IMG/VR virus record: IMGVR_UViG_3300008267_000013
Span: 23,793-87,792 of that record
Reading direction: 5' to 3' (one strand)
Length of the DNA stretch: 64,000 nt
Origin: a virus
In this document: positions 40,612-63,654 of the stretch, in pieces
How positions within the stretch are numbered: position 1 is the stretch's first letter
Layout: the number at the start of each line of letters is the position of its first letter
The notes under the pieces: generated by a model
The model's input: the letters and a program-made list of their open reading frames with translations, nothing else
The model's database searches: none
Told to the model about the DNA's origin: nothing
Program-made: the position numbers and the translations under genes

Positions 40612-40685
40612 GTTCTTTCTCAAACTTTCTTTTGATTCCCTGCCGGGGCAGAACTTCAACCACCAGCAGGGATCAACTTCAACCT

Positions 40686-41044: not shown

Positions 41045-41463
41045 GACTCACCTCCAACAGAACGGACACAACGGACCCGGCGCGTAATGCCCACGACGCT
41101 GCTGTACGTGTTGCCGTGGTTGAAGTACACGCTCCACGCGAGCGCTGTAAGGCCGGACACGGGAGACGACGACCAGAACCATTCACTGGGGCAGTCAGGA
41201 AACACGCTGCACGCTGGATTGTGTGTCTCGTAGTCCACAAGAGACAGAAGCTCCCTGACCGTGGGCAGCCGCCACCCATCACCCAGAGAAGCGGCATATG
41301 CCTTGGCCCCTTCCCAAGTGAACTCCCTATCCGGCACGTCCGCCTGCCACTCAAGATCACCCACCTTCACGGTGCGGATAGATGGTCTACTCTGTGCAAC
41401 CTCCATATCAGCAAGACGTTTTTCGAGCATGGCAACACGGGCAGATAAATCTTTAACAGTCAT
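41041..41463 (-). CDS. DUF1566-like C-type-lectin-fold protein, candidate variable protein
   Basis: 140 aa; start at 41463 with GGGAGG upstream. An N-terminal coiled coil (SARVAMLEKRLADME) leads to a DUF1566 domain: DGWRLPTVRELLSLVDYE, EWFWSSSPV, AWSVYFNHGN and the ending RVRCVR. This fold and ending are typical of target proteins of diversity-generating retroelements. No reverse transcriptase or template repeat is seen in the window. Likely a host- or ligand-binding surface protein. Confidence 0.7.
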   Translation of the reverse strand: MTVKDLSARVAMLEKRLADMEVAQSRPSIRTVKVGDLEWQADVPDREFTWEGAKAYAASLGDGWRLPTVRELLSLVDYETHNPACSVFPDCPSEWFWSSSPVSGLTALAWSVYFNHGNTYSSVVGITRRVRCVRSVGGES

Positions 41464-41483
41464 ATGCGCCTCCCTATCCACCC

Positions 41484-41512
41484 AATCTAGTCACTATCAG
41501 GCGGGTTGTCAA
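41484..41512 (-). promoter_or_regulatory. Promoter of the DUF1566 operon, embedded in a gene end
   Basis: Minus strand TTGACA (41512-41507), 17-bp spacer, TAGATT (41489-41484). The -35 codes for Leu-Asp-Asn of the gene at 41487-41768. Confidence 0.8.
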
Positions 41513-41768
41513 GTAGTTCTTCAGTTTCCTCGTCATAGAAACCGATGTTGCCGCCGGTCACATCGTTCAAGCCCTCTACGAATCCAGCAACGAAGTCCTC
41601 ACTGTAACCGTTCCTGCGGTACTCGTCAAGAAACAGATTCATCTTTTCAATGATGTGCTTGCGAGCAAAAGCCTGCCCAGCCTCATTGCCATGCAGGTTA
41701 TCCTCAACCATCTGCTCACTATACTCGGTCATCTCGCTGCTGTCAATCTCAGTCACGATGTTATCCAT
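41487..41768 (-). CDS. Acidic hypothetical protein
   Basis: 93 aa from the ATG at 41768. Acidic helical protein with FVAGFVEGLNDVTGG, ending ELLDNPPDSD, the same promoter-coding tail as the gene at 40689. Confidence 0.5.
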   Translation of the reverse strand: MDNIVTEIDSSEMTEYSEQMVEDNLHGNEAGQAFARKHIIEKMNLFLDEYRRNGYSEDFVAGFVEGLNDVTGGNIGFYDEETEELLDNPPDSD

Positions 41769-42048
41769 CACTAGCCTCCGTTGGAAAGTGGCATCCCATA
41801 TGCCAACACTCGCACTCACGTTCATGTTCCCACAGGCACCGTCGAGCCTGTTCAAAAGGTACAGGATCAATCGACACCATATGTGGATGCTCAGATGAAA
41901 TTACATCTCTACACTTGTCACAGAGCATTGGTTGGTGAGGATCACGCAGCATCTGGTCGCTACGGATCCGGCATCTACGGCAAGCCGGCAGCAACCCTTT
42001 CAAGTTTGTCACGGCAACCTGCACCGTTGATTCCCTAATCTTAGCCAC
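41761..42048 (-). CDS. Zinc-binding-type protein
   Basis: 95 aa from a GTG with GGAAGG upstream. CRRCRIR ... CDKCRD, then a second Cys/His cluster (CECWHMGCH). Probably binds metal; function unknown. Confidence 0.5.
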   Translation of the reverse strand: MAKIRESTVQVAVTNLKGLLPACRRCRIRSDQMLRDPHQPMLCDKCRDVISSEHPHMVSIDPVPFEQARRCLWEHERECECWHMGCHFPTEASDG

Positions 42049-42062
42049 TCTTCACCTTCCTG

Positions 42063-42275
42063 TCAAGCGTGCAACTCGTATGTGTAGTTTTTATCCATCG
42101 TGTTGAGATAACTTGTGCTGTACTCGTCTCGATCCATGTCATAGATAGAGTAGTACGGCTTACCGTTGATATCAAGAGTAACACCAGTAACAAGAAAATA
42201 TCTTGTTTCCACATGGTGTTGCTCGGAACCATAGACCCATGTGTTCTTCACAATGTCACCGATCTCGTATGTCAT
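42063..42275 (-). CDS. GDI-family protein (minus-strand cluster)
   Basis: 70 aa. YEIGDIVKNTW, YFLVTGV, YSIYDMDRD, ending YELHA. Own promoter at 42282-42310. Confidence 0.65.
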   Translation of the reverse strand: MTYEIGDIVKNTWVYGSEQHHVETRYFLVTGVTLDINGKPYYSIYDMDRDEYSTSYLNTMDKNYTYELHA

Positions 42276-42281
42276 AGATGT

Positions 42282-42310
42282 ACTTTAAAGCTGCCACCCA
42301 CCGTTGTCAA
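42282..42310 (-). promoter_or_regulatory. Promoter of 42275 gene
   Basis: Minus strand TTGACA (42310-42305), 17-bp spacer, TAAAGT (42287-42282), 6 bases before the ATG at 42275: another nearly leaderless start. Confidence 0.8.
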
Positions 42311-42322
42311 GCAGGATGATCA

Positions 42323-42386
42323 GATAAAAGGTTGATGTGAGGGGGCCAGCCCCCCTGCACCCAGCTTTTTCTGCTGGGCCGGGGAT
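42323..42386 (-). terminator. Double-hairpin cassette 5
   Basis: Minus strand: CCCAGCAGAAAAAGCTGGG hairpin, GGGGGGCTGGCCCCC hairpin, then CCTTTTATC. It follows the old 3' end of the gene now ending at 43199. Confidence 0.8.
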
Positions 42387-42392
42387 GGCTAA

Positions 42393-42442
42393 TGTTACTC
42401 GCGCTTCTTTAGGCCGTTCTTAAAAGTTGGGCGTTTCCATTT
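42393..42442 (-). pseudogene. Displaced 3' end of the 43199-44098 gene
   Basis: On the minus strand this stretch reads W-K-R-P-T-F-K-N-G-L-K-K-R-E-stop, matching the C-terminus WHERPSYKNGLKKR of the gene on the far side of the HNH insert. Confidence 0.75.
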
Positions 42443-42471
42443 TTTTATACTATTTATTTTAGGAGATAAAA

Positions 42472-43197
42472 ATGACAGAAGAACAAAAAGCTTTAAAAAA
42501 AATAAAAGATAAGGAATATAGAGGTAAAAATAAAGATAAAGCAAAAGCTTGGAGGGAAGCTAATAAAGAGTACATTAAGGAATATAGAAAAAAATATTAT
42601 GAAGAAAATAAAGATGAATTATTAGAATATTATAAAAAACAGAGAGAAGAAAATCCTGGGGAGAATACTGAGCGCTGTAAAGAATATAGAAAAAATAACT
42701 TAGAAAAATTAAGAGGATACGATAGACAAAGAAGGAAGGAAGGGAAGAAAAAAGAATCCGATAAGAAATATCGCGATAAAAATAAAGATAAAGCTAAGGC
42801 ATATAAAAAAGAATATTCTAAAAAAAACAAAGATAAATTAAATGAATACAAAAAAGAATATTTGAAAGATAACCCAATGTATAGGACCCATAATCAATTT
42901 TCAAATGCTATACGAGATCATTTAAAAAAACTTTCAATTAATAAAACACGCAATTGGGAAGAATTAGTTGGTTATACCTTAGAAGATCTTATGAAGCACC
43001 TTGAATCGCTTTTCAAAGAAGGCATGACTTGGGATAACTATGGCAGTTATTGGCACATTGACCACGTTCGTCCCAAGTCATGGTTCATCTTTGAATCAGT
43101 CGAAGATCAAGCGTTCAAAGACTGCTGGGCATTGTCCAATCTTCAACCTTTGGAGGCTAGTCTCAATTGCTCTAAAGGTAACAGATACGAAGGTTAG
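42472..43197 (+). CDS. HNH endonuclease inserted at the 3' end of a minus-strand gene
   Basis: 241 aa. A long Lys/Glu/Tyr-rich helical N-terminus (about 1-125) is followed by MTWDNYGSYWHIDHVRPKS, FKDCWALSNLQPLEASLNCS and KGNRY, an HNH domain. It is AT-rich and on the plus strand within a GC-richer minus-strand block. CTATTTAT and AGGAG precede the ATG. A copy of the neighbouring gene's 3' end lies on its left (42393-42442). Confidence 0.82.
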   Translation: MTEEQKALKKIKDKEYRGKNKDKAKAWREANKEYIKEYRKKYYEENKDELLEYYKKQREENPGENTERCKEYRKNNLEKLRGYDRQRRKEGKKKESDKKYRDKNKDKAKAYKKEYSKKNKDKLNEYKKEYLKDNPMYRTHNQFSNAIRDHLKKLSINKTRNWEELVGYTLEDLMKHLESLFKEGMTWDNYGSYWHIDHVRPKSWFIFESVEDQAFKDCWALSNLQPLEASLNCSKGNRYEG

Positions 43198-43198
43198 T

Positions 43199-44098
43199 TT
43201 ATCTTTTCTTTAGGCCATTTTTATAAGACGGCCTCTCATGCCACTTGATAATCTTTTCAGCAACGTGTTCAGTCCCATCCTTGCCAAACCACAGAACCTC
43301 GATTAGCTTGCTGCCCTTGCCAGCACGCCAGCGACGTGTTTCTGCTGTTACCTTCATAACGGTGCCGATACGCTCAACCTCCTTGCTGGGAGTAGGAGTT
43401 GCGCCCCGGTGGACAACATCATAGTTGGAAACCCACAGGGGATCATGCCCATCATGCCCAATATAGGGATCACGCAGCTTGACAAGATCACCCGGCTCAT
43501 ACGGAGTGTCACGGTTCACTTCACGATAATGTGCAGCCTCATGGTGAGAAGTTACCGTGTTGAACATAAGGTAGGTTTCTGGACGGTTGCGATAACGCTC
43601 AGTCAGAGCTTCCGCAGCACTCCTTTCCTCCTGAGTTGAACTGTACTGGTTAACCTGCAAGCTGTTACCATAGCGATCATGCAGCCAGTATGAACTGTTG
43701 AAGAACTGCTTGTAGAAATCCTGCAAGTCCTCACGCTCGTCATACTCCTTGAGGAACTGTTCGTTTACTTCATCAAAAGCAGGGCTGGAGAAATAAGCGT
43801 ACTCAACACAACGCTCAAAGTTCCAGTTGGTCTTGACAACAGATCGGAAGTTTTCCTCGTTCACTTCCCAACGGTTGAATCGCTCGTCATAATATTCCTT
43901 TACCGTGTAAGGAGTCCCATCCTCATGGACTCCATAATAATGATTATGCTTCTGTGAACCGCGAACGACACACATATCCTTGATATTCTGTAGAGTGTAG
44001 CCCCGCGCAGGGTCCAGCATGATGCTGGCAATATTCTGTCGCTTGAGAGGGAACTTGGTGTTGGGAACAAACTTAACAATCTTCTTCTGACGCGCCAT
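43199..44098 (-). CDS. Protein with C-terminal GDI/SH3-like domain
   Basis: 299 aa. The first 200 residues are charged and unrecognised; from about residue 203 YEPGDLVKLRD, later RIGTVMKV and LIEVLWFG form a long GD-type domain like that of the protein at 26939. The stop is 2 bp from the stop of the HNH gene. Its last 15 codons are duplicated at 42393. Confidence 0.6.
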   Translation of the reverse strand: MARQKKIVKFVPNTKFPLKRQNIASIMLDPARGYTLQNIKDMCVVRGSQKHNHYYGVHEDGTPYTVKEYYDERFNRWEVNEENFRSVVKTNWNFERCVEYAYFSSPAFDEVNEQFLKEYDEREDLQDFYKQFFNSSYWLHDRYGNSLQVNQYSSTQEERSAAEALTERYRNRPETYLMFNTVTSHHEAAHYREVNRDTPYEPGDLVKLRDPYIGHDGHDPLWVSNYDVVHRGATPTPSKEVERIGTVMKVTAETRRWRAGKGSKLIEVLWFGKDGTEHVAEKIIKWHERPSYKNGLKKR

Positions 44099-44131
44099 GT
44101 GTCACCTCACCCGTCCATCGGGGATATTGAC

Positions 44132-44160
44132 AATCTATAACGGGATGCTGCTGCTGTCAA
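44132..44160 (-). promoter_or_regulatory. Promoter embedded in gene end, drives 44098 gene
   Basis: Minus strand TTGACA (44160-44155), 17-bp spacer, TAGATT (44137-44132); the -35 codes for Leu-Asp-Ser in the gene at 44135. Confidence 0.78.
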
Positions 44161-44425
44161 GCGCCTGCTTGCAATCTTCGCAACAATCTTTCGACAACTC
44201 TTTCCACGGTACCTTTGGCAGATTAAGGATTGCTTTTCTAACCTGCTCCCGCACACCATAATGAAAACAGTTTATTATATTGTAAGAGGTAAAGTTTCCA
44301 ACTCCTCTGGGGGTTACATTATGTGTGATTGTACATACCAGTTCAAAATCAGACAGTGCGATTAGCTCGCTCGCCAGTTTCTTCAAGCCTTCCTCGTCTA
44401 GCTTGTTTGACGGTATCCGCATCAC
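44135..44425 (-). CDS. Hypothetical protein
   Basis: 96 aa. A helical N-terminal part and CCEDCKQ near the end, finishing ALDSSSIPL where the codons overlap the next promoter. Function unknown. Confidence 0.5.
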   Translation of the reverse strand: MMRIPSNKLDEEGLKKLASELIALSDFELVCTITHNVTPRGVGNFTSYNIINCFHYGVREQVRKAILNLPKVPWKELSKDCCEDCKQALDSSSIPL

Positions 44426-44441
44426 GTCCTCCTGTCCACTC

Positions 44442-44470
44442 TATATAGAGCAGGCTGCTTCGCCTGTCAA
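44442..44470 (-). promoter_or_regulatory. Promoter of 44425 gene
   Basis: Minus strand TTGACA (44470-44465), 17-bp spacer, TATATA (44447-44442). Confidence 0.75.
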
Positions 44471-44485
44471 GCTGGCGGGGCATAA

Positions 44486-44546
44486 GAAAAGGGAGTAGAG
44501 GGAGGGCTAGCCCCCTCAGCCAACCTTTAATTCCCAGCCGGGGAGG
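44486..44546 (-). terminator. Double-hairpin cassette 6, between divergent genes
   Basis: AAAAGGG...GGGCTAGCCCCC...CCCAGCCGGGG in the same polarity as the other copies, but here no minus-strand gene ends beside it; it lies between divergent promoters. Confidence 0.6.
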
Positions 44547-44599
44547 TTGACTAGAAGGAGGGGGCGGGGTACATTAAGAACATCAGGAGGACGGAACAA

Positions 44600-44719
44600 A
44601 TGGACTGGGACAACTTAGACGAGGAGATGGAGTGGGAGGGGGAGGACTGGTGTTGGGATGATGATATGCCGACTCCCGTTCACAATGCTTGGTGGTACGA
44701 CTTGACTGCTGAAGGTTAG
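44600..44719 (+). CDS. 39-aa acidic Trp/Asp-rich micropeptide
   Basis: Preceded by AGGAGG and by TTGACT-17-TACATT near 44548. The product is rich in D, E and W (MDWDNLDEEMEWEGEDW). The last codons contain the -35 of the next promoter. It could be a DNA-mimic-like inhibitor; no proof. Confidence 0.5.
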   Translation: MDWDNLDEEMEWEGEDWCWDDDMPTPVHNAWWYDLTAEG

Positions 44720-44730
44720 TGTACTAGATT
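44702..44730 (+). promoter_or_regulatory. Promoter embedded in micropeptide end
   Basis: TTGACT (44702), 17-bp spacer, TAGATT (44725-44730), upstream of the gene at 44791. Confidence 0.7.
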
Positions 44731-44790
44731 AACTTTTACGGGGCAATTGAGCCTCACACAAGCTGGCTAATCCAGCATCGGAGCAAGACA

Positions 44791-45108
44791 ATGGCTGCTA
44801 CCCGCGAGAACGTTCTGGCTGCTATCGTGAAGTACGTTGAGGATCATGGTCGCCGCGCCCCTGCCAAGGCTATCGCTGAGGCTGTTGGTGACAAGCTGCC
44901 GGTTGTGCAGGGCATCATCAAGGAGCTGGTCGCTGCTGGTTCTATTGAGTCGAGCCGTGGACGCAACGGCGGTGCAAAGCCCTCTGGTCAGAACATTGAC
45001 AAGGTTGAGGTTGAGACTGCTGCGTCCGACGAGGACATGGCCGCACAGTTTGCGGCACTTGTCAACCAGCTTGAGCAGGATGCAGAGGCCCAGGCCGCTG
45101 TTGGTTAG
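44791..45108 (+). CDS. Small winged-helix-like protein
   Basis: 105 aa. ENVLAAIVKYVEDHGRRAP, then AIAEAVG and VVQGIIKELVAAGSIESSRG have the pattern of a winged helix-turn-helix (helix, turn, recognition helix, wing). Acidic helical tail. GC-rich codons. Probably binds DNA; target unknown. Confidence 0.6.
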   Translation: MAATRENVLAAIVKYVEDHGRRAPAKAIAEAVGDKLPVVQGIIKELVAAGSIESSRGRNGGAKPSGQNIDKVEVETAASDEDMAAQFAALVNQLEQDAEAQAAVG

Positions 45109-45131
45109 TTAACAATAGCAAAGGGTACAGG

Positions 45132-45165
45132 GGCCGCTCTCCATGTCGGGGGGCGGCCTCGTTGC
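45132..45165 (+). terminator. Hairpin after 45108
   Basis: GGGGCCGC / GCGGCCTC stem; tail is not U-rich, so termination is uncertain. Confidence 0.4.
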
Positions 45166-45227
45166 ATAGGTGCCTAAGATAGCACCCCCACCGCAGTAGA
45201 CAAGGGTGAATAAACTTTTTTTAGCAG

Positions 45228-45298
45228 GTAAAAAAGAGGGGTCGAAGAGGGCTAGCCCCTCCCGATTCCCGTTTTTTTCTGTAGACTCCCGGCGGGCT
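45228..45298 (-). terminator. Double-hairpin cassette 7, between plus-strand genes
   Basis: AAAAAAGAGGGG...GGGCTAGCCCC...CCCG-TTTTTTT...CGGCGGG, same polarity as others although both neighbours are on the plus strand. Confidence 0.55.
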
Positions 45299-45340
45299 CT
45301 CGACTACTTTGACAATGTACCCACCACGGAGGAACACAAT

Positions 45341-45997
45341 ATGGCAAAGCTCCCTTGGATTCTCGGCAATGCGAAGTTGCAAAAGACTAGCGGCAATGGG
45401 TTCGGACGTGTTATTGGGTACGGGATCCCCCCAGACTTCGACTTCGAGGTTGACGGGAGTAACTTTAACACGTGTCCTGGTGCTCTTGCCTGTCGTGCCG
45501 TCTGCTATGCAAAGCAAGGCGCATATAACTGGCCGGCAACCAAGGCGGCGCGTCAACGTGCTCTTGAATCCACCCTCAGTCAATCGTTCGTTGACGATGC
45601 GGTCGCGGACCTTAAGCGGATGCGCGGCGTTGGTGTTGTACGTATCCACGACAGCGGTGATTTCTATTCGCAGACGTATCTGGACAAGTGGGTTGCAATT
45701 GCCCGTGCGTTCCCCAATATTATCTTTTACGCCTACACCAAGAGTGTCACGCTTGACTTCACAGGCATTCCCGAAAACTTCCGCGTCACCTTTTCGCTGG
45801 GTGGTAAGTATGATTCACAGGTTGACCTGAGCAAGCCGCACTCCCGTATCTTCACAACGCATGAGGATATGGAGCGGGCGGGATATGTAGACGGCGGCAA
45901 AAGCGATGCCCCGGCGATTCAAGGGCTGGTCAAGATCGGCCTCCCTTGGCACGGTGTTAAGAATCTAACAGACTCTCAAAAGAAGTTTTTCCGATAG
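45341..45997 (+). CDS. GP88-like phage protein
   Basis: 218 aa; ATG at 45341 with GGAGG upstream. NTCPGALACRAVCYAKQGAYN and VVRIHDSGDFYSQTYLDKW match the conserved Cys cluster and R-x-H-x-S-G-D motif of the phage GP88 family; FYAYTKSV also fits. The biochemical role of that family is not established to my knowledge. GC-rich codons. Confidence 0.72.
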   Translation: MAKLPWILGNAKLQKTSGNGFGRVIGYGIPPDFDFEVDGSNFNTCPGALACRAVCYAKQGAYNWPATKAARQRALESTLSQSFVDDAVADLKRMRGVGVVRIHDSGDFYSQTYLDKWVAIARAFPNIIFYAYTKSVTLDFTGIPENFRVTFSLGGKYDSQVDLSKPHSRIFTTHEDMERAGYVDGGKSDAPAIQGLVKIGLPWHGVKNLTDSQKKFFR

Positions 45998-46016
45998 TGT
46001 AAAGCCCCACGGTGTC

Positions 46017-46080
46017 CAAAAAAAGGATGCCGAAGGGGGCTGGCCCCCTACCCCACCACTTTTCTGATGGCAGGGAGGGA
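46017..46080 (-). terminator. Double-hairpin cassette 8
   Basis: Lies between convergent genes; GGGGGCTGGCCCCC and CCACCACTTTTCTGATGG hairpins, A run on the left, T run (TCTTTTTT) 10 bp to the right, so it could stop transcripts from both sides. Confidence 0.7.
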
Positions 46081-46136
46081 GACCAGTCTTTTTTAGATAA
46101 GGAAACGCACGTTGCCCCTATTCTACCGCCCTAGAG

Positions 46137-46349
46137 TCAACGTGGAGACGCGATCGTCATCTTTGCGACACGGTATCGCCTAATAACCTTGCCGCCCTTC
46201 CTGAGGGGATTAACGTTGTTTAATTCCTGACAGCATGAGCGGGCATTCTTTCGCATGGTGAAGATAGCATCCTCGATCCGGCGCCAATTATTGCCAACAC
46301 GCTTTAGAACGGTATAGATATGATTCTTCTTTGTTGTCTTAATCGTCAT
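46137..46349 (-). CDS. Small basic protein
   Basis: 70 aa, Lys/Arg-rich (TIKTTKKNHIYTVLKRVG). AGGAG lies upstream; the start could be one codon earlier. Overlaps the end of the acidic gene before it. Confidence 0.5.
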   Translation of the reverse strand: MTIKTTKKNHIYTVLKRVGNNWRRIEDAIFTMRKNARSCCQELNNVNPLRKGGKVIRRYRVAKMTIASPR

Positions 46350-46566
46350 CATCCATCTCCTCATCTGGCATGTCGTCAAGCTCTTGAGCGGCACGGTTAG
46401 CTAGAAACCCCATCTGTTTAACTTCATCGTCAGAGAAGTCATCTAGTTCAATATCTAAACCATATTCATCCTTGATCTCCAGGATTGATACCCGCCCGGT
46501 ATGTGAGACCTCGGCCAGAATATCATATTGACCAAAGTCATCCCGGAAGTTATAGTTGACGCGCAT
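46339..46566 (-). CDS. Acidic small protein
   Basis: 75 aa, beta-rich N-terminus and an Asp/Glu tail (DDMPDEEMDDDD). Function unknown. Confidence 0.5.
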   Translation of the reverse strand: MRVNYNFRDDFGQYDILAEVSHTGRVSILEIKDEYGLDIELDDFSDDEVKQMGFLANRAAQELDDMPDEEMDDDD

Positions 46567-46567
46567 T

Positions 46568-46744
46568 CTAGATCCCCTCCTCTACAACGATGTATGAAAC
46601 ACCTGTAGACTTGAGGCGACTGTTTAATACCTCCGCTCGATCAATAGCGGCCTGCTTATCCTTGAAACGTAGCGGCTGGCCATCGAATTGGACAACATGT
46701 CCGCCACTTGCGTAGATTGCTTTTATAACCCAATTTGTTTGCAT
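46568..46744 (-). CDS. 58-aa hypothetical protein
   Basis: ATG with GGAG 6 bases upstream, directly after the stop of the 47158 gene. MQTNWVIKAIYASGGHVV, then LRFKDKQAAIDRAEVLNSR, ending VVEEGI: an alpha/beta mini-domain. Part of the 47400-46137 operon. Confidence 0.55.
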   Translation of the reverse strand: MQTNWVIKAIYASGGHVVQFDGQPLRFKDKQAAIDRAEVLNSRLKSTGVSYIVVEEGI

Positions 46745-47158
46745 TTATTCTCCTGTGCCTTGAGGCACGTTATCATCAGTCTCGATCTTGGACTTGTTAC
46801 GGCGAATCCTCTTCCTCTTCAATTCGCGGTCATATTCAATAGAAAGGCAGCTCATCTTCTCAGGAACAGGAACCTCCCGTGCCTTAGCCTTGCGTGAGCC
46901 GCAGTTATCACACTTCGCACAGTCAAGGTGGTTGATACCACGGCAGCTACTATTAACGCACCGCCATGCGAAACCAGCCCGCACAAGAATACCACCAAGA
47001 ACAGCATACTCGTCTGCATCGTAGTTGTCAAGGTCAACAGCAGCAATCAGTCGATCAACAAAACCTTCGGTGAATTGCGTCTTGAGACGAACAGCAAAGT
47101 TATTCTTTCCACCCTTCTCGATCTCAGTCTGTGCGTCAACACTCTCGATATTATCCAT
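46745..47158 (-). CDS. Protein with RanBP2-type-like zinc finger
   Basis: 137 aa; ATG at 47158 with GGAGG. WRCVNSSCRG...CAKCDNCGSRK in the middle resembles a W-x-C...C-x2-C finger; the tail is basic (RELKRKRIRRNKSK). Likely binds RNA or protein; inference. Confidence 0.55.
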   Translation of the reverse strand: MDNIESVDAQTEIEKGGKNNFAVRLKTQFTEGFVDRLIAAVDLDNYDADEYAVLGGILVRAGFAWRCVNSSCRGINHLDCAKCDNCGSRKAKAREVPVPEKMSCLSIEYDRELKRKRIRRNKSKIETDDNVPQGTGE

Positions 47159-47172
47159 GGCAACCTCCAAAG

Positions 47173-47400
47173 TTAGTTAGCGTGACGGTAGTTAGCAGCA
47201 TCCCACTCAACAGGCAAGCTAATCTCATAATGCACATATTGTTGCCAATCAGCATAACCAAGCGACTGTGCGAGGCGGTCACGCTCCTCAACACTCATCA
47301 TGTCGTCGGTGCGACCAACAATCTTCTTGACCTTGTTGTAAACCATGTCAAACATAACAACCCCCAAGGTGAGCCAAGCCATGATCATATAAGTCGGCAT
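47173..47400 (-). CDS. Small membrane-anchored protein
   Basis: 75 aa; ATG at 47400 with GGGAGG. N-terminal membrane helix (MIMAWLTLGVVMFDMVY), soluble helical remainder. Confidence 0.55.
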   Translation of the reverse strand: MPTYMIMAWLTLGVVMFDMVYNKVKKIVGRTDDMMSVEERDRLAQSLGYADWQQYVHYEISLPVEWDAANYRHAN

Positions 47401-47458
47401 CTGTGTCCTCCCGTTCAACTGAAGCTATATTCTCATGAGACGGGGATGGTTGCAACAA

Positions 47459-47524
47459 AGAAAAAGATGTAAGCGGAGGGGCTAGCCCTCCCCGGTCCCG
47501 GTTTATATTCAGCCGGGTGGGAGG
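47459..47524 (-). terminator. Double-hairpin cassette 9
   Basis: Minus strand CCCGGCTGAATATAAACCGGG hairpin region, GGGGAGGGCTAGCCCCTCC, then CATCTTTTTC. Follows the stop at 47530. Confidence 0.72.
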
Positions 47525-47529
47525 CAATC

Positions 47530-47679
47530 CTACAAGAAGAACTTGACAACGAATGCAGTTGCAACGCCACCAGTCAAGGCACCAAGGAGGAGCGAATAAC
47601 GCACAAGATTAACAACCTGCTCATCGTTGAAGGAATAGGAGATGGAGTTAACAGACGACAGACGCTTTGAGACGCGCAT
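47530..47679 (-). CDS. 49-aa membrane protein
   Basis: ATG at 47679 with GGAGG. Basic N-terminus, then a membrane helix (YSLLLGALTGGVATAFVVKF). Confidence 0.55.
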   Translation of the reverse strand: MRVSKRLSSVNSISYSFNDEQVVNLVRYSLLLGALTGGVATAFVVKFFL

Positions 47680-47784
47680 GAGAAGCCTCCAGGGAGTTGG
47701 TGAGTCTTTGTAGATCATGGCAACCGCCGGAACATATCATACCATTGCTGGACAAGCAACGCATAAGTTTCTGTGATGGAACCG

Positions 47785-47898
47785 CTACTCTTCTTCTTCG
47801 TTGGCTTCTTCCCGCCAGTCCTCTTCCTCTTGGCGATTGTACTCTTTTTTTGATCGGTGTGGTCCACTTTTTGTTACCCCTTGGATGATGCGAACCAT
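47785..47898 (-). CDS. Possible 37-aa acidic/basic peptide
   Basis: MVRIIQGVTKSG... ending in a Glu-rich run. It follows the 48151 gene on the same strand, but no ribosome site is evident and the start is a guess. Confidence 0.3.
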   Translation of the reverse strand: MVRIIQGVTKSGPHRSKKEYNRQEEEDWREEANEEEE

Positions 47899-47905
47899 GT
47901 GAATG

Positions 47906-48151
47906 TCACGCGTTCTTATTCGTGAACTTCCAGCCATCAGGCGCCGTTTCATTCCACACCTCGCGTGCATACTCGGGGTCGATCACATCAAGGTCGGCAA
48001 AAAGATCAGAAACAACTTTATAGCTATCACGACCCTTGGTCCACACGCCATGATCGTCGCTGTAATCATACCACCAATCATGACGGCTCATCACGTTGCG
48101 GAGCTGGGTGGCAACAGTTTCACGGTCCTTGAGGATGGGGAGATTGTTCAT
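47906..48151 (-). CDS. Hypothetical protein
   Basis: 81 aa with GGAGA 7 bases before the ATG. Trp/Asp-rich centre (HDWWYDYSDDHGVW) and EYAREVWNETAPDGW. Function unknown. Confidence 0.55.
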   Translation of the reverse strand: MNNLPILKDRETVATQLRNVMSRHDWWYDYSDDHGVWTKGRDSYKVVSDLFADLDVIDPEYAREVWNETAPDGWKFTNKNA

Positions 48152-48220
48152 CTGTGTTCTCCTAGCAGCACCGTGCTGCCTATGAACTGATATTACGTCA
48201 GGACGGGTCAGCGTACAAGA

Positions 48221-48284
48221 TAAAAAAACGGTGATGAAAAGGGGCTAGTCCCCCTTGCCAACCCTTTTATGGGCTGGTGGGGGC
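48221..48284 (-). terminator. Double-hairpin cassette 10
   Basis: Minus strand CCAGCCCATAAAAGGGTTGG, GGGGGACTAGCCCC, then GTTTTTTTATC. Follows the stop at 48321. Confidence 0.8.
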
Positions 48285-48320
48285 ATCCCATATGTTGCGG
48301 CTGGGTGGTACCGCCGGGGC

Positions 48321-48659
48321 CTAATACACCCCTTCCAGTTCTGCACTTGTATCATACCATGCGGCCAGAGGGCAAGCCTCATCCTGCCAGTCGGTCATCT
48401 CCTCATAAGCCTCACGGCTGTCAACCTTCTGACACTCATGGAGGGCCATGAGTTCAACAGGCGGCGGAGCGATGTAACCAACAACACCCTCACGCTCCAG
48501 AGCCTCCTCGCGCTCGACAAGCTCTTCGGCTTCACGGTCAGTCATGGGGGGAACCTCGTCAGAGAAAAGGTGCTGGTGGGCTTCGGTCAAGGTCATGGTG
48601 TCTCCAAGATTGCGACAGCGGCGCAGGGCTTCAATGAAGTTGGTGTCGTGGTGACGCAT
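48321..48659 (-). CDS. Acidic hypothetical protein
   Basis: 112 aa; ATG at 48659 with GGAGA. Glu-rich helices (DREAEELVEREEALERE). Promoter at 48682-48710. Confidence 0.5.
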   Translation of the reverse strand: MRHHDTNFIEALRRCRNLGDTMTLTEAHQHLFSDEVPPMTDREAEELVEREEALEREGVVGYIAPPPVELMALHECQKVDSREAYEEMTDWQDEACPLAAWYDTSAELEGVY

Positions 48660-48681
48660 CTTTTGTCTCCAGAGTTGATCT

Positions 48682-48710
48682 AGTCTAGTGTCCTGCAATC
48701 TAGTTGTCAA
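48682..48710 (-). promoter_or_regulatory. Promoter embedded in end of 29-aa membrane peptide gene
   Basis: Minus strand TTGACA (48710-48705), 17-bp spacer, TAGACT (48687-48682). Confidence 0.78.
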
Positions 48711-48789
48711 GCCGGTACATGGCGGCAACAATGATGAGGGCAACTACAAGGGAAGAGAAAAAGATGTTCATGATGCGGTCGTTGTTCAT
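48700..48789 (-). CDS. 29-aa membrane micropeptide
   Basis: GGAGT precedes the ATG. MNNDRIMNIFF then SSLVVALIIVAAMYRLDN: one membrane helix, ending in the codons that make the next promoter's -35. Promoter TTGTCA-17-GAATAT upstream. Confidence 0.5.
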   Translation of the reverse strand: MNNDRIMNIFFSSLVVALIIVAAMYRLDN

Positions 48790-48854
48790 GTTTGACTCCG
48801 TGTCGTGCGCTGTTGATGAAGTGATATTCTCATGGAACCGGCAGGGTGACAAGA

Positions 48855-48917
48855 TAAAAAAAGGGTGCAGGATAGGGGCTGGCCCCCTCTGCCAATCCTT
48901 TTTGGACTGGCTGGGGT
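48855..48917 (-). terminator. Double-hairpin cassette 11
   Basis: Minus strand CCAGTCCAAAAAGGATTGG, GGGGGCCAGCCCC, then CCTTTTTTTATC. Follows the stop at 48924. Confidence 0.82.
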
Positions 48918-48923
48918 CTTAGC

Positions 48924-49127
48924 CTATCGGGGTTCGGAGTCCTTCACCAGCTGTTCAAACTGGTCATACACCCGCTGCCGGTTGCCGTTCAGTTTGTAGA
49001 CACGTTTAACGTGGGCATACATGGAACCCCCTCTGTGCTTCAATCCAGCAAGCTCTAGCTTCAGAGCCGAAAGCTGGGTCCGCATATGATACCAGTTGAT
49101 CGATTGCAGGCCCGTGATCAATGACAT
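48924..49127 (-). CDS. Basic helical protein
   Basis: 67 aa with AAGGAG 5 bases before the ATG. Charged helix, Arg-rich end (YKLNGNRQRVYDQFEQLV). Overlaps the upstream gene end. Confidence 0.5.
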   Translation of the reverse strand: MSLITGLQSINWYHMRTQLSALKLELAGLKHRGGSMYAHVKRVYKLNGNRQRVYDQFEQLVKDSEPR

Positions 49128-49264
49128 AGCTTCTCCTTCTCGTCCCCATAATCACCAGAGCAGCAGGGGCCGCAGATTGCAACCTCCTGTCCATTGATCG
49201 CCCCAACAACACCATGCAGGGAGGGATCGAAGTAGACCCCGCAGCAGTTGCACCTCTTGTCCAT
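49118..49264 (-). CDS. 48-aa zinc-ribbon protein
   Basis: ATG at 49264 with GGGAGG. CNCCGVYFDPS and CGPCCSGDYG give two Cys pairs. Function unknown. Confidence 0.5.
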   Translation of the reverse strand: MDKRCNCCGVYFDPSLHGVVGAINGQEVAICGPCCSGDYGDEKEKLCH

Positions 49265-49323
49265 TAGAGCGACCTCCCGGGGTTGGTGGCAACAGCCACG
49301 ATGGCAATGATGATAAACGTCAT
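49264..49323 (-). CDS. Possible 19-aa hydrophobic peptide
   Basis: MTFIIIAIVAVATNPGRSL, stop overlapping the next ATG (TAATG). Similar in kind to the 29-aa membrane peptide but no clear ribosome site. Confidence 0.3.
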   Translation of the reverse strand: MTFIIIAIVAVATNPGRSL

Positions 49324-49328
49324 TGAGA

Positions 49329-49574
49329 TCAAAGGTCACACTCCTTCCAGCTCATGCCATTCATCGCCATGAGCTGACGCAGCCCACCCTGCTGGCAGCT
49401 CGTTGTCACACTATAACGTCCGCTGTTCAATGTCAAGACACCATCCTTCCTACAGAGTAGCGGAGTGTTATAAGAAAAAATGATGCTGCCATCAGTCCAG
49501 ATCGAAGTGGACTTGCGGCAAGTCTTGCCTGCGTTCCAAGCATTGAAGGCATCCTGAACATTCTTGCGGGCCAT
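49329..49574 (-). CDS. Hypothetical protein
   Basis: 81 aa; ATG at 49574 with GGAGG. Beta-rich middle (SIWTDGSIIFSYNTPLL, GVLTLNSGRYSVTTS). First gene of the leftward 49574-48924 unit. Confidence 0.55.
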   Translation of the reverse strand: MARKNVQDAFNAWNAGKTCRKSTSIWTDGSIIFSYNTPLLCRKDGVLTLNSGRYSVTTSCQQGGLRQLMAMNGMSWKECDL

Positions 49575-49640
49575 GGCATCCTCCGTTGTGTGCCGTCTTG
49601 ATGTGTCTAATCTCTCATGGGTTGACTGCCTTGGCAAGAA

Positions 49641-49698
49641 GAATAAACGATTGCTTGTGGGGGCTAGCCTGCCACGATCAACCTTTTTCCTGGGCAGC
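49641..49698 (-). terminator. Double-hairpin cassette 12, degenerate
   Basis: GGGGGCTAGCC followed by CC...CCTTTTTCCTGGG; imperfect, at the right edge of the GC-richer block. Confidence 0.45.
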
Positions 49699-50062
49699 AT
49701 ATAAACTTTTTTAAAGCTTGACTGGCATGAACACTTTTATTTTTATGTATGGGGTGGTGGGGAGGGGAGGTGGTCATACTGCAAGATGTCACAATATAAG
49801 TCCCTAGAGATATTAAAAAGGGTTAAAAACGGGCATAACCCTCGCACCAACTCCCGGAAAAATTCTCATTTTTGAAACATATAATATTTTAAGAAAACTT
49901 TAACATGTGTTATATTAATCGTCAACAAAAATTTTTTTAAAAAATTTCTAGGATTTCTTCTTGTCTACTGTTTAAATAACTGGTAGTCTATATACAATAT
50001 ATTTTGTTATCTTTATTTAAAAAAATATCTACTTATAGTATACAGGAGAGCAATCAAATATT
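49699..50062. other. Divergent AT-rich intergenic region
   Basis: No gene. Minus-strand genes lie left, plus-strand genes right. It contains GGGTGGTGGGGAGGGG, TTGACT at 49719, a GGGTTAAAAACGGGCATAACCC pair and long A/T tracts around 49930. Promoters for both sides or an origin are possible. Confidence 0.45.
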
Positions 50063-51159: not shown

Positions 51160-51399
51160 ATGCACCGTGCTGCTCTTGCAAGAGAAGTTGTCAATCATCA
51201 ACCCTCAAATGTGCTTCGCACTGCTGGTTCCCGAAAAAAATTTGGGCGCGAGCTTTGCGAGGCACTTCAATTTTGGAGCTTTGAAGAAATGCAATCTTTT
51301 GTTGAAGAGATGCGCGGCTTGAATTTTCGGCTGGCTGAGGATCGACAACTTTTTGTTCAGTTCCTTTCATCTTGGATTGGGATTGGAGATAGAACATGA
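51160..51399 (+). CDS. Hypothetical protein
   Basis: 79 aa; ATG at 51160 with GGAGG 8 bases upstream is preferred to 51145. Basic helical first half, acidic second half. Overlaps the HNH gene by 4 bp. Confidence 0.5.
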   Translation: MHRAALAREVVNHQPSNVLRTAGSRKKFGRELCEALQFWSFEEMQSFVEEMRGLNFRLAEDRQLFVQFLSSWIGIGDRT

Positions 51400-51923
51400 A
51401 GGTTCTTACGCTCTCTAGCACATATGAGCCGCTTGGTGTTATAGATTGGGAGAAAGCAATCACGCTTGTTTTTTCAGGCAAGGTTCATGCTGTCTCTGAA
51501 TATGATCGGGAGATTCATTCACCAACTTGTTCTATGAAAATTCCATCTGTTGTTGCTTTCAAACACAGCAAAGGTCGCAGAGTTAAGTCTGTTAGATTTT
51601 CTAGAAAGAACGTTTGGATTCGCGACGAAGGCCGTTGTCAATATTGTAAATCACATGTGTCCATCAAAAGTTTTACACTTGACCATGTTGTGCCAAGAAC
51701 ATTAGGTGGTTCAACTATTTGGACAAATGTTGTTACTTGCTGTGCATCCTGTAATCAAAAAAAGGGTGACAAATTGCTACATAAATGTGGCATGACTCTA
51801 TATAAAGTACCAACAAAACCTTCTAGTCTACCATATGTACAAGATGTAGAATTTTTTTATAATTTTCAAAATACGGTCCCTGAGGATTGGAAGTTTTGGC
51901 TTGGAGAGGACTGCTGTAAATGA
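51396..51923 (+). CDS. HNH endonuclease (McrA-like type)
   Basis: 175 aa. IRDEGRCQYCK, SFTLDHVVPRTLGGSTIW, then VTCCASCNQKKGD: the HNH core with two CxxC pairs, and an N-terminal domain (VLTLSSTYEPLGV). This bacterial-type HNH family is not typical of homing genes; it may cut or nick DNA in phage metabolism. Coupled to the DnaQ gene (ATGA). Confidence 0.8.
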   Translation: MKVLTLSSTYEPLGVIDWEKAITLVFSGKVHAVSEYDREIHSPTCSMKIPSVVAFKHSKGRRVKSVRFSRKNVWIRDEGRCQYCKSHVSIKSFTLDHVVPRTLGGSTIWTNVVTCCASCNQKKGDKLLHKCGMTLYKVPTKPSSLPYVQDVEFFYNFQNTVPEDWKFWLGEDCCK

Positions 51924-57966: not shown

Positions 57967-58041
57967 GCGGGTGTAGTTCAGTGGTAGAACTTTAGTTTTC
58001 CAAACTAAATGTCGCTGGTTCAACCCCAGTCACCCGCTCCA
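57967..58041 (+). tRNA. tRNA-Gly (anticodon TCC)
   Basis: 75 nt: acceptor GCGGGTG/CACCCGC, D-arm GTTC...GAAC, anticodon arm TTAGT-TTTCCAA-ACTAA, T-arm GCTGG-TTCAACC-CCAGT, then TCCA. Canonical. Confidence 0.93.
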
Positions 58042-58364: not shown

Positions 58365-58655
58365 TGGTCAGTAGCCAAGCGGCAAGGCAGCGAGCTGTAA
58401 ATTAGCAGCGTTTGATAGAAATATCAAAATGAAAAGATTGTAATATCAAGGAACCCTCTGTTTGAACTTTAAACGTGGCAATCTTGAGCCAAGCAAAAGT
58501 AGAAATACTTTTGAAGGTGCAGAGACTATAATCAGTCCATCTTAACGTAAAGCCGAAGATGATGGAATAGTCCAGACCACAAACCGAAAGGGTAGCGAAA
58601 GCTATAGTGGTAAGTAACTCGCCTAGCGTAGGTTCGATTCCTACCTGACCAGCCA
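58365..58655 (+). tRNA. tRNA-Asn (anticodon GTT) with group I intron
   Basis: Exons 58365-58398 and 58615-58655, intron 58399-58614 (216 nt). Joined: acceptor TGGTCAG/CTGACCA, anticodon arm GCGAG-CTGTTAA-CTCGC, T-arm GTAGG-TTCGATT-CCTAC, GCCA. P1 pairs GCTGT with GCAGC (U-G at the splice site); P7 is GACTA...TAGTC; the last intron base is G. Unspliced, the loop reads GTA and mimics Tyr. Confidence 0.88.
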
Positions 58656-59803: not shown

Positions 59804-60355
59804 ATGACTGATAATTCTGAAATCCAGGGCCTTAATGTCAGTGACAAGTACAAGTTTGATCGTCTAACTCGCTGGACAAAGGATCTTATCAAGAAGGATC
59901 TCCAGCAAAACGCATTTCCATATGCTGTATGTATGGAAAACTGGGCCGGTGACTTTAATTTAAGTAGCTGCATAAGGGCAGTAAATGCTCTTGGTGGTTC
60001 TGAAATGTATTATCTTGGTAGGAAGCATTATGATAAACGCGGAGCGGTAGGCACATATAACTATACGCAGGTGTCGCATCTTTCTACAAGAGAAGAACTT
60101 TTAAGGTTAAAAGAAAAATATGTACTTGTTGGACTTGAAAATACAGTTTCGAATCCACAATCACTTTATGATTACACATGGGATAAAAATTCTTTAATTA
60201 TCGCTGGTGAGGAGGGTATTGGCATTACACCGGAAACTCTAGAATTATGTGATAAGTTTGTTTATATTCCTCAATACGGCTCAGTGAGAAGTATGAATGC
60301 AGCTGCGGCAGTAAGTATTGCTTTATATGATTACACATCAAAATTTAAAAAATAA
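59804..60355 (+). CDS. SPOUT (TrmH-type) RNA methyltransferase
   Basis: 183 aa, the short length of the SPOUT core. Motif 1 NLSSCIRAVNALG, motif 2 IIAGEEGIGITPETLELCD, motif 3 IPQYGSVRSMNAAAAVSIALY, which form the trefoil-knot SAM site of rRNA/tRNA 2'-O-methyltransferases. The C-terminal third is present again as a remnant at 61281-61586, beyond an HNH gene. Likely modifies tRNA or rRNA during infection. Confidence 0.85.
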   Translation: MTDNSEIQGLNVSDKYKFDRLTRWTKDLIKKDLQQNAFPYAVCMENWAGDFNLSSCIRAVNALGGSEMYYLGRKHYDKRGAVGTYNYTQVSHLSTREELLRLKEKYVLVGLENTVSNPQSLYDYTWDKNSLIIAGEEGIGITPETLELCDKFVYIPQYGSVRSMNAAAAVSIALYDYTSKFKK

Positions 60356-60388
60356 TGATGTGTTCCAAAAGTACCAACTAATTATTTT

Positions 60389-61306
60389 ATGGAAAATAAA
60401 ATAAAATGTGTTAAATGTAAATTAGAAAAAGAAAGTGCTTCATATACTTTAAACACTGGGGATAGATATTCAAAAACTTGTTTAGAGTGCAGAAAAAAAT
60501 TAAATAAAGAAAAATATCTTAGAAGAAAAAAAACTTTATCTATAAAAGATAAAATTATAAAATATGAAGCTTATTATGATGAAAACAATGTTTTAATAGC
60601 ACAAAAATGTGCTAAATGTTTTTTAATTAAAAGCTTAGATAATTATTTTAAAAATAAATCAAGAAAAACAGGTTTTGATAAATATTGTAAAGATTGCCGC
60701 CATACCAGTAGAGTCAATCGTTCTGAAGAAAAAGCAAAAATAGAAAGACAAAAAAATAATGAAAGATATCATAAAAACAAAGAAAAAATAAATAAAGACA
60801 TAAAAAATAAAAGAAAAAACGACAAAAAATATATAGAAAAATACCTATCTTATAAAAAAAAATATTACTCTAAGGAAGAAAATAAAATTAGACGAAGACT
60901 TAAATATAAACAATATCATAAAAACAAACAAAAAAATGATCCTTGTTATAGAATGATGTTTGTTATGCGAACTAGATTGCGCAATGAAATAAAAAAATCA
61001 CTAGGTAAAAAAACTAAAAAGTTTAGTGAATTTTTAGGAATCGACTATGTTTCTTTTAAACAATATATAGAAAAACAATTTACGGAGCATATGAGTTGGG
61101 ATAATTATGGTACTTATTGGGTAATAGACCACATAAAACCGTGTTGTTCATATGATTTAACAATTGTCGAACAACAACAAGAATGTTTTAATTATAAAAA
61201 TTTGCGGCCTTTAGAAACAAAAGAAAATTTAATAAAGGCAGGCGAAGATAGAAAATTATCAATTAAAACAAACAAAAAAATATGTTATCCACCTAAAGAC
61301 GCGTGA
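60389..61306 (+). CDS. HNH endonuclease inserted into the SPOUT gene
   Basis: 305 aa. N-terminal Cys pairs (CVKCKLEKE, CLECRKKL, CAKCFLIKS, CKDCRHTS), a Lys/Asn-rich helical middle, and the HNH core MSWDNYGTYWVIDHIKPCC, YKNLRPLETKENLIKAGED. Very AT-rich. Its end overlaps the displaced methyltransferase fragment. Confidence 0.85.
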   Translation: MENKIKCVKCKLEKESASYTLNTGDRYSKTCLECRKKLNKEKYLRRKKTLSIKDKIIKYEAYYDENNVLIAQKCAKCFLIKSLDNYFKNKSRKTGFDKYCKDCRHTSRVNRSEEKAKIERQKNNERYHKNKEKINKDIKNKRKNDKKYIEKYLSYKKKYYSKEENKIRRRLKYKQYHKNKQKNDPCYRMMFVMRTRLRNEIKKSLGKKTKKFSEFLGIDYVSFKQYIEKQFTEHMSWDNYGTYWVIDHIKPCCSYDLTIVEQQQECFNYKNLRPLETKENLIKAGEDRKLSIKTNKKICYPPKDA

Positions 61307-61586
61307 CCAGTTGCTCAAGCTTAGGGAGGAATACGAGCTTGTGGCTATTGAAAATACTGTGCCGTCTGCTGTTGCTCTGGCTAACGCTGAATATAAGCGT
61401 CCTCCTCTATTTATATTGGGCGAAGAGGGTGTCGGAATCACTCCAGAAACCCTTGAACTTTGTGAAAAGTTTGTATATATTCCTCAGTGGGGAAGTGTTC
61501 GTAGTCTCAATGCTGCTGTGGCTGGCAGTATCATTATGAATGATTTTGTGACTAATCATGCGCATAAATTTTCAAATAAGAATTAA
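61281..61586 (+). pseudogene. Displaced C-terminal part of the SPOUT methyltransferase
   Basis: The frame HLKTRDQLLKLREEYELVA...GEEGVGITPETLELCEK...IPQWGSVRSLNAA aligns with HLSTREELLRLKEKYVLVG... of the intact gene. It lacks motif 1 and has only TTG at 61311 as a start. It is the original gene end cut off by the HNH insertion. Confidence 0.85.
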
Positions 61587-61667: not shown

Positions 61668-62993
61668 ATGGCTAAAAAAACCGGCAAGAAGATCTACGTT
61701 ATAGATACTAACGTATTTCTAAGTGATTTTAATGCTGTATATGCTTTTAAGGATAACGATATTGTTGTTCCTATAAAAGTTCTTGAAGAAATTGATAAGC
61801 ACAAAAAGCGCCAAGATGGTGTTGGTGCTAATGCGCGTCAAGTTATTCGCGTATTTGATGCTTTAAGAGAAAAGGGTGAGCTAACTGCAGGTGTTAAAAT
61901 TAGTGGCAAGAAAGGGACTTTAACCGTTAAAGGCTACGGCCCCGTAAGTCCATTACCAAGTGAAATGTCAATACAAGACCCTGATAATCAAATACTTGCA
62001 ACCGTTAAAACTGTAATAGCTGATAGTCCGGAAGCAAAAGTTATTCTCGTATCTCAAGATATTAATATGAGAGTTAAGGCTGGTGCTCTTGGAATTACAG
62101 CCGAAGATTATACAACAAATCAAATTGTTGAAAAGATGGAAGAAATCTATACTGGATTTACTTCTTATCTTGTCGATGATCATTTAATTGATCGTTTCTA
62201 TGCTAACGAACGTATATTTGTAGACATAAAAGATATATCCCTACAACCAAATCAATATGTAATGTTAGTTTCAAATGCTAACGAAAAGAAAACAGCACTA
62301 TCTAGATTCAGAAACTACAATCATCCACTCTCAAAAGTAAGAGAATATCGTGATGGTATCTGGGATATTCGCGCTAAAAATAAAGAACAACAATTTGCTT
62401 TTGATCTATTAATGGACCCAGAGATAAAGATTGTTTCGCTTGTAGGTCTTGCTGGTTGTGGAAAAACTCTAATAGCCCTTGCTGCCGCACTAGAACAAAC
62501 TATAGCAGCAGAAATTTATAAGAAAATTATTGTTTCGCGACCCGTAGAGCCAATGGGACGCGATATTGGATTCCTACCTGGCACTCTAGAAGAAAAAATG
62601 GCACCTTGGGTTGCTCCAATTCAAGACAATCTTGAGTTCCTTATGGGTGACGACAAAGAGCATCTAAAAATGCTACAAGAAAAAGGAACTATTGAAGTTG
62701 AAGCACTAACATTTATTCGTGGTCGTTCTATTTCAAAAGCTTTTATTATAATTGATGAAGCACAAAACTTAACAATGCATGAACTAAAAACAATCATCAC
62801 TCGCGTTGGTGAAGATACAAAAATTGTTCTAACTGGTGATATTGCTCAAATTGATAATCATTTTCTAGATGCCACCAATAATGGTCTAACTTATGCTGTA
62901 GAAAAGTTTAAACCATTTGAATTAGCTGGTCATGTAACCTTGCAAAAAGGTGAAAGATCTGCGGTTGCCAGTCTGGCTGCTAATGTTCTTTAA
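61668..62993 (+). CDS. PIN-PhoH (PhoH2-type) ATPase/ribonuclease
   Basis: 441 aa. PIN domain at the start (VIDTNVFLSD, VLEEIDKHKK, later SQDINMRVKA) and a PhoH domain with Walker A GLAGCGKT (260-267) and Walker B IIDEAQN (about 361-367). Such fusions unwind and cut RNA. The C-terminus is ERSAVASLAANVL; a second version of this end is fused to the following HNH gene. Confidence 0.9.
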   Translation: MAKKTGKKIYVIDTNVFLSDFNAVYAFKDNDIVVPIKVLEEIDKHKKRQDGVGANARQVIRVFDALREKGELTAGVKISGKKGTLTVKGYGPVSPLPSEMSIQDPDNQILATVKTVIADSPEAKVILVSQDINMRVKAGALGITAEDYTTNQIVEKMEEIYTGFTSYLVDDHLIDRFYANERIFVDIKDISLQPNQYVMLVSNANEKKTALSRFRNYNHPLSKVREYRDGIWDIRAKNKEQQFAFDLLMDPEIKIVSLVGLAGCGKTLIALAAALEQTIAAEIYKKIIVSRPVEPMGRDIGFLPGTLEEKMAPWVAPIQDNLEFLMGDDKEHLKMLQEKGTIEVEALTFIRGRSISKAFIIIDEAQNLTMHELKTIITRVGEDTKIVLTGDIAQIDNHFLDATNNGLTYAVEKFKPFELAGHVTLQKGERSAVASLAANVL

Positions 62994-63042: not shown

Positions 63043-63654
63043 ATGATTAAAAAAATAACAAAAGAAGGAACATGGAAAGAAAAAAGAGTATTGGTAGAAT
63101 GTGAAATATGTCACAAAGAAAGAGAAGTTGCCTATAGAGTAGCAGTAGATAAGAGCAATCTAATTCATAGATGTATTTCTTGTGCAACAATTAATACACA
63201 GACAGGCCTGAAAAGATCAGAAGAAACTAAAAAAAATATAAGTAGAGCTCTTAGAAAAATAAATAATGGTGGAATTAGATATAATCAATCTGGTGGTTAT
63301 AAACAAATATTAGTCGATAATGATCATCCAAGAAAAAAAGATAGAAAAGGCGGTAGCTACATTTTTGAGCATATATTGACTATGGAGCAAAAAGTAGGAA
63401 GATTTCTTGAAAAGCATGAAATAGTACACCATATAGACAAAGATAAACAAAATAATAACATAGAAAATTTACACTTATTTTCTGGAAACAACAATAAAGA
63501 ATCATCACAAATGCATAACGCAGCACATGAAAGTTTAGAACAAGTAGGTATTGAATTATATAAACTTGGTCTAGTTAAATTCGTAGATGGAAAGTACAAT
63601 CTACCAGAAGAAATCAAACAAGCAGTCGCTAGTCTAGCTGCCTCGGTACTCTAA
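63043..63654 (+). CDS. HNH endonuclease fused to displaced phoH 3' end
   Basis: 203 aa. CEICHKE...CISCATI zinc module, then FEHILTMEQKVGRFLEKHE, IVHHIDKDKQNNNIENLHLF (HNH). The last ten residues, AVASLAASVL, repeat the PhoH C-terminus (AVASLAANVL), so the gene reads through into the old phoH end. GGAGG upstream. Confidence 0.83.
   Translation: MIKKITKEGTWKEKRVLVECEICHKEREVAYRVAVDKSNLIHRCISCATINTQTGLKRSEETKKNISRALRKINNGGIRYNQSGGYKQILVDNDHPRKKDRKGGSYIFEHILTMEQKVGRFLEKHEIVHHIDKDKQNNNIENLHLFSGNNNKESSQMHNAAHESLEQVGIELYKLGLVKFVDGKYNLPEEIKQAVASLAASVL

Follow-up and report, generated by a model that had tools for sequence, protein, structure and literature searches.

At a locus in an uncultured viral genome, a complete SPOUT methyltransferase gene is a mosaic of two lineages, an HNH endonuclease gene follows it, and beyond this lies the displaced native end of the methyltransferase gene. 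This arrangement recurs around endonuclease genes at other targets. Judging from the sequences compared here, we think it very probable that such loci are products of homing, in which an HNH gene arrives with a diverged but working version of one end of its target gene, this version replaces the end that was cut, and the old end is displaced.

The window, that is, the whole stretch of DNA analysed, comprises 64,000 bases (positions 23793-87792 of the 87,792-base IMG/VR record IMGVR_UViG_3300008267_000013, an uncultured viral contig). It is AT-rich outside a region of higher G+C at about 34000-50000, in which many short G-rich repeats (AGGGGGGCTGGCCCC-like) follow genes. A row of many small paralogous genes with a common N-terminal motif, YxxGDI(I/L/W), occupies 27500-33500. 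Two group I introns score above the Rfam gathering score, one at 58387-58595 (+) near a tRNA-Gly gene (57967-58041) and the other at 39997-40198 (-) near a tRNA-Thr gene (39116-39190); both are possibly tRNA-associated, and the latter intron is separated from its tRNA gene by an HNH_3 gene (39340-39855, -). An HNH_5 gene at 51396-51923 (+) has close homologues in most related phages, and resembles a core gene more than a mobile endonuclease.

The SPOUT methyltransferase locus

The first locus, locus A, has the following features.

59804-60355, + strand: complete SPOUT (SpoU/TrmH-like) methyltransferase gene (PF00588, E 1.6e-22)
59804-59941, + strand: part of this gene assigned as native, the 5' part, codons 1-46 (from clade-invariant sites, tree and nucleotide identity)
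59942-60355, + strand: part of this gene assigned as foreign, the 3' part, codons 47-183 (from clade-invariant sites, tree and AU test)
60389-61306, + strand: EndoVII-like HNH endonuclease gene (PHROG 1035 'endonuclease VII', E 3.8e-12; GC 0.23)
61283-61586, + strand: displaced SPOUT 3' end assigned as native, codons ~90 to stop (PF00588, E 2.5e-16)

The first-pass annotation had placed at this locus a SPOUT gene, then an HNH gene, then a diverged second copy of the SPOUT C-terminus, and all three are present: both SPOUT segments match PF00588, and their C-termini share 58% identity over 90 amino acids (E 9e-35). A stop-anchored comparison of the two ends scores 84, where the 99th percentile of the null is 27. 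The displaced C-terminus has an open frame from 61236, with homology running from about 61283 to 61586, and the final codons of the HNH gene run into this displaced DNA, the HNH stop codon lying inside it.

An alignment of the EndoVII-like HNH proteins shows an invariant D247-H248...N271...N280 core and near-invariant cysteines at C74, C77, C100 and C103. On the strength of this D-H..N..N core and of matches to PHROG 1035, we assign the endonucleases of locus A and of locus B (below) to the EndoVII-like HNH enzymes. A structure model of the HNH protein has a pLDDT of 76 and a pTM of 0.40; in a search of the PDB with this model, the best matches, Hpy99I (E 0.33) and I-HmuI (E 2.2), were not significant.

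Scans of viral contigs yielded 15 relatives of the SPOUT gene. One was too incomplete for judging; in the other 14 the gene is uninterrupted. The first-pass annotation had predicted that the fragment would belong with insert-free relatives and that the replaced end would resemble another lineage, and both expectations were borne out. The displaced fragment is 75-84% identical in amino acid sequence to the C-termini of the three closest relatives, L012, L015 and L018 (84% for L012), in which the gene is continuous, whereas the end of the intact gene is only 57-63% identical to them. Likewise, the fragment matches 181 of the 196 sites that are invariant among these three (92%). In a sliding comparison, nucleotide identity changes sharply near 59941, at codon 46 inside the intact gene; across 59846-59909 it is 65-83% to L012 and L018. 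The intact gene matches 57/63 of the invariant sites before codon 46 and 199/292 after it, a difference for which the Fisher p of 1.7e-4 is optimistic, the breakpoint having been picked by scan. Trees place the two parts oppositely: codons 1-46 cluster with L012 and L018 (support 85/82), while codons 47-183 cluster with a second lineage, L007-L010 (support 95/97), and forcing the latter part into the native clade is rejected by the AU test (p=0.007). From the opposite tree placement, the site matches and the affinity of the fragment, we conclude that the intact SPOUT gene is a chimera, and that the fragment at 61283-61586 is the old end of the recipient lineage's gene. GC3 values of 0.39 for SPOUT codons 1-89, 0.19 for the last 94 codons and 0.36 for the displaced fragment agree with this conclusion.

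The proposal of the first-pass annotation that the endonuclease gene arrived together with a replacement 3' part of its target is thus supported, and its extent must be revised. The swap is not confined to the last third of the gene: the foreign part begins at about 59941 (codon 46) and makes up some three-quarters of it. In addition, about 43 native codons (~47-89) are missing from both the intact gene and the fragment.

An intact copy and a fragment flanking an HNH gene would also result from tandem duplication of the target, followed by HNH insertion in one copy and deletion. This history, the one that the first-pass annotation had named as fatal to its own, predicts relatives with two full tandem methyltransferase genes, and none of the 14 related loci has them. 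Nor would it explain why the intact gene itself combines sequence from two lineages that meet at codon 46. The layout is also found at unrelated targets, and at one of these, the terS gene of phage MPK9 discussed below, the relatives show a single copy only. We therefore consider a duplication very improbable.

Further loci in the same virus

The first-pass annotation had stated that the pattern recurs at two further loci in the window, and we find it at both, with anchored scores of 55 (locus B) and 42 (locus C). At locus B the endonuclease gene lies on the opposite strand to its target.

43199-44098, - strand: target gene with no function assigned, its last ~45 bases being the putative replaced 3' end (ends WHERPSYKNGLKKR)
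42472-43197, + strand: EndoVII-like HNH gene (PHROG 1035, E 8.8e-13; alignment)
42395-42442, - strand: putative displaced target end, KWKRPTFKNGLKKRE plus stop (anchored score 55-56)

The displaced copy here is short, at 48 bases, and its score of 55-56 is again to be set against a null 99th percentile of 27. Neither the contig scan nor the phage collection contained a close relative of the target gene; a 39% homologue is present in the related genome G011, in an alignment that stops short of the gene end. With homologues only as distant as this, it is by analogy that we take the displaced copy to be the probable old end of the target.

Locus C concerns the phoH gene, and lies directly downstream of locus A.

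61668-62993, + strand: PhoH gene, PIN plus PhoH ATPase (PF02562/PF13638)
62961-62993, + strand: putative replaced PhoH 3' end, at least the last ~33 bases (from anchored comparison with the displaced copy)
63043-63654, + strand: HNH_3 endonuclease gene, its C-terminus an in-frame fusion with the displaced PhoH end (PF13392, E 8.6e-11)
63622-63654, + strand: displaced PhoH 3' end assigned as native, AVASLAASVL plus stop (anchored score 42; TAATG overlap)

The score of 42 exceeds the same null 99th percentile of 27. Over 33 bases, nucleotide identity does not discriminate which end is foreign, and the gene overlap alone does so: the displaced end keeps the TAATG stop/start overlap with the next gene that is seen in an uninterrupted relative, L017. 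Because this native overlap is retained, we read 63622-63654 as the old PhoH end. Four related phages (L013, L014, L016 and L017) have a gap of ~1.2 kb between the SPOUT and PhoH genes, which we considered as a candidate HNH element and rejected; it is occupied by purB (adenylosuccinate lyase), near 5500-6830. In another related phage the PhoH gene carries an intein (L009:5609-8146).

A fourth locus in this virus lies outside the window, at record bases 16345-18031 (L068:16345-18031), and has a score of 112. Its order is a displaced 28-codon 5' end of nrdB, an EndoVII-like HNH gene and an intact nrdB, which is the mirror image of the loci above, with the new end at the 5' side.

Could the two ends at these loci be alternatives joined by splicing, through a group I intron or an intein? 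Introns often house HNH genes, group I introns are present elsewhere in this virus, and a related phage has the PhoH intein. Against this, no Rfam intron is found at locus A, where just 33 bases separate the SPOUT stop from the HNH start and the target is complete unspliced, and at locus B the HNH gene is on the strand opposite to its target. We regard splicing as extremely improbable.

Recurrence in other phages

The first-pass annotation had suggested that the pattern may be a general strategy, and the nrdB locus, together with loci in unrelated phages, lends this support. In a related phage, G008 (L054:5731-6560), a GIY-YIG gene stands between a 12-codon 5' fragment of purA and an intact purA; the 12 residues are identical in both copies, and the DNA is recoded. 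A 3' copy was found by the stop-anchored test next to none of some 24 other endonuclease genes of the related phages that were fetched. A blind all-against-all search of related phages for partial duplicates was swamped by tandem paralogues and GC-rich out-of-frame matches and was dropped; because of this noise, the start- and stop-anchored tests were restricted to the flanks of endonuclease genes.

We then surveyed 277 HNH loci, EndoVII-like and HNH_3, from IMG/VR and GTDB genomes. To pass, a locus needed an intact gene end no more than 100 bases from the HNH gene on one side and, on the opposite side, a partial copy whose end lay no more than 100 bases away; other ORFs of the same loci served as controls. 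This strict flank test was passed by 14/277 HNH loci and by 5/535 control ORFs, an excess that persists without the three window loci (p=0.0055). The figure of 14/277 is only indicative, and not an unbiased frequency, as it was drawn from the best-scoring HNH loci with a test devised once the first cases were known. One of the five passing controls is itself an endonuclease gene, of the GIY-YIG type, beside a flap-endonuclease-like gene.

Read by eye, the survey gave five cases with a new 3' end, namely L288 (helicase), L257, L377, L387 (cytosine methyltransferase) and L406, and five mirror cases with a new 5' end, namely L135 (terminase large subunit), L196, L336, L357 and L389 (DNA methyltransferase). 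Both ends of target genes are thus affected, the 5' end in the mirror cases and the 3' end in the others. As at locus C, the HNH reading frame of L288, L257, L377 and L406 includes the displaced end. Six matches were rejected: L217, L221 and L392 are arginine-rich and out of frame, L202 is an HNH-HNH tandem, and L364 and L319 were also set aside, the last as unconvincing. The intact end is lower in GC than the displaced copy at 10 of 12 informative loci, a shift towards the AT-rich HNH genes that is expected if the intact end came with the endonuclease gene. Each case inspected has one displaced copy, with no clusters of the kind that repeated homing would leave. Contig searches found no donor contig bearing the cassette.

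Of 12 cultured phages checked that carry an EndoVII-like HNH gene, the layout was seen in one, Pseudomonas phage MPK9 (OP868670). Here the HNH gene directly precedes terS, and the first 30 codons of the HNH gene correspond to the native terS 5' end, which is uninterrupted in phages YA3 and HB2107-3I; these 30 amino acids are identical to those of YA3 and differ by one change from those of HB2107-3I. In MPK9 terS itself, codons 1 to ~66 are foreign, with 42-66% nucleotide identity to YA3 and HB2107-3I over most of their length, and the gene after about codon 66 is native, with 84-100% identity to YA3. Immediately upstream, MPK9 agrees at 300/300 positions with HB2107-3I, whose site is empty. 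By these comparisons MPK9 is a mirror case for which the empty site is available; MPK9 and the empty-site phages share one laboratory Pseudomonas host strain, which makes this a testable system.

The uncultured source of the window contig raises the question of a metagenome assembly chimera. Four HNH-centred cases on one contig, recurrence in independent contigs and a cultured isolate whose flank is 100% identical to that of an empty-site isolate speak against this, and we give it a negligible probability.

Mechanism and known systems

In the homing reading that we prefer, the cassette would pair an HNH endonuclease gene with a copy of one target-gene end that has diverged but still functions. 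When a phage without the cassette co-infects, the HNH enzyme would cut its target gene; at locus A the cut would probably fall between SPOUT codons 46 and 90. The broken target would be repaired on the donor, the crossover falling in the gene's conserved 5' portion, so that the donor 3' end and the HNH gene are copied into the recipient, and the second broken end would be joined behind the HNH gene. The target would stay open and functional, and would presumably no longer be cut, because the new end differs. A cassette in a mirror case would lie upstream of the target and supply a new 5' end.

There is a variant of this explanation that keeps the same history and gives a different reason for it. 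The endonuclease gene may merely sit beside its target, the adjacent donor end being dragged in as a co-conversion tract with no role in immunity, and the far side joined illegitimately, as by-products of one-sided repair. Co-conversion around phage homing endonucleases is well established, and the far junctions are untidy: locus A lacks about 43 codons and has the HNH stop within displaced DNA, and several loci have an HNH reading frame that takes in the displaced end. However, the replacement ends are complete to the start or stop at every locus seen, 5' and 3' alike, and the purA ends encode the same 12 amino acids in different DNA, as expected if a new end must differ from the sequence that is cut. 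Plain selection for a working target could also account for complete, recoded ends. Our judgement is that a by-product of this kind is a serious possibility, albeit somewhat improbable, and that the new end may serve the cassette by protecting the target from its endonuclease.

Prophages e14 and phage 21 integrate in the 3' end of icd and restore it, displacing the old end; unlike the cassettes proposed here, they use a site-specific recombinase rather than an endonuclease and repair. With the free-standing endonucleases of T4-like phages (SegA-G, MobA-E), the cassettes share a position between host genes and spread by donor repair with co-conversion, but replaced target ends are not among the features described in the parts consulted of a review of those enzymes (PMC2988022). 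In the open-access literature searched, we found no description of the layout in phages.

The closest parallels come from a rare kind of selfish gene that has hitherto been described in fungi. The mobile ORFs of Glomus mitochondrial atp6, atp9, cox2 and nad3 and of Allomyces atp6 (PMC3630166) likewise combine an inserted C-terminus with an endonuclease gene and displace the native C-terminus, they occupy several targets per genome, and the endonuclease is sometimes in phase with target sequence. They differ in encoding LAGLIDADG or GIY-YIG enzymes, in residing in fungal mitochondria and, as described there, in affecting only 3' ends. The WHO elements at FBA1 in Torulaspora and Lachancea yeasts have been proposed as a third structural class of homing elements (PMC7282813, eLife 2020). 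As in the phages, the endonuclease gene lies beside rather than inside the host gene, on either strand; the host gene is chimeric with a foreign end, and the displaced native fragment is on the far side; and trees of the host gene's 5' and 3' portions conflict (PMC7282813). The phage loci show an adjacent intact host gene, a native/foreign chimera (SPOUT and MPK9 terS) and a displaced end that is continuous in empty-site relatives. Unlike the WHO proteins, which are intein-derived with zinc fingers (PMC7282813), the phage enzymes are HNH (EndoVII-like or HNH_3) or GIY-YIG, and the matches to PHROG 1035 and PF13392 place the HNH enzymes apart from the WHO/HO/VDE type. WHO elements replace 3' ends and form clusters (PMC7282813), whereas in phages 5' ends are replaced as well, no clusters were seen and the targets are many; cleavage has been demonstrated for WHO (PMC7282813), while for the phage enzymes it is predicted. 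The phage cassettes thus appear to work like WHO elements without being members of the WHO protein family.

The usual classification of homing elements distinguishes those concealed within introns or inteins from those that stand alone between genes. We think it probable that a widespread class of self-immune homing elements, not described before, exists in phages and brings a replacement 5' or 3' target end, and that this class has its origin in two or more nuclease superfamilies (HNH and GIY-YIG), independently of the fungal WHO elements, such that the two ends of essential genes (terS, terL, nrdB, phoH and methyltransferases) evolve separately. If so, this could account for the mosaic ends of essential phage genes, and the third class would be a general one, with the WHO layout extending in phages to 5' as well as 3' gene ends and to other nucleases.
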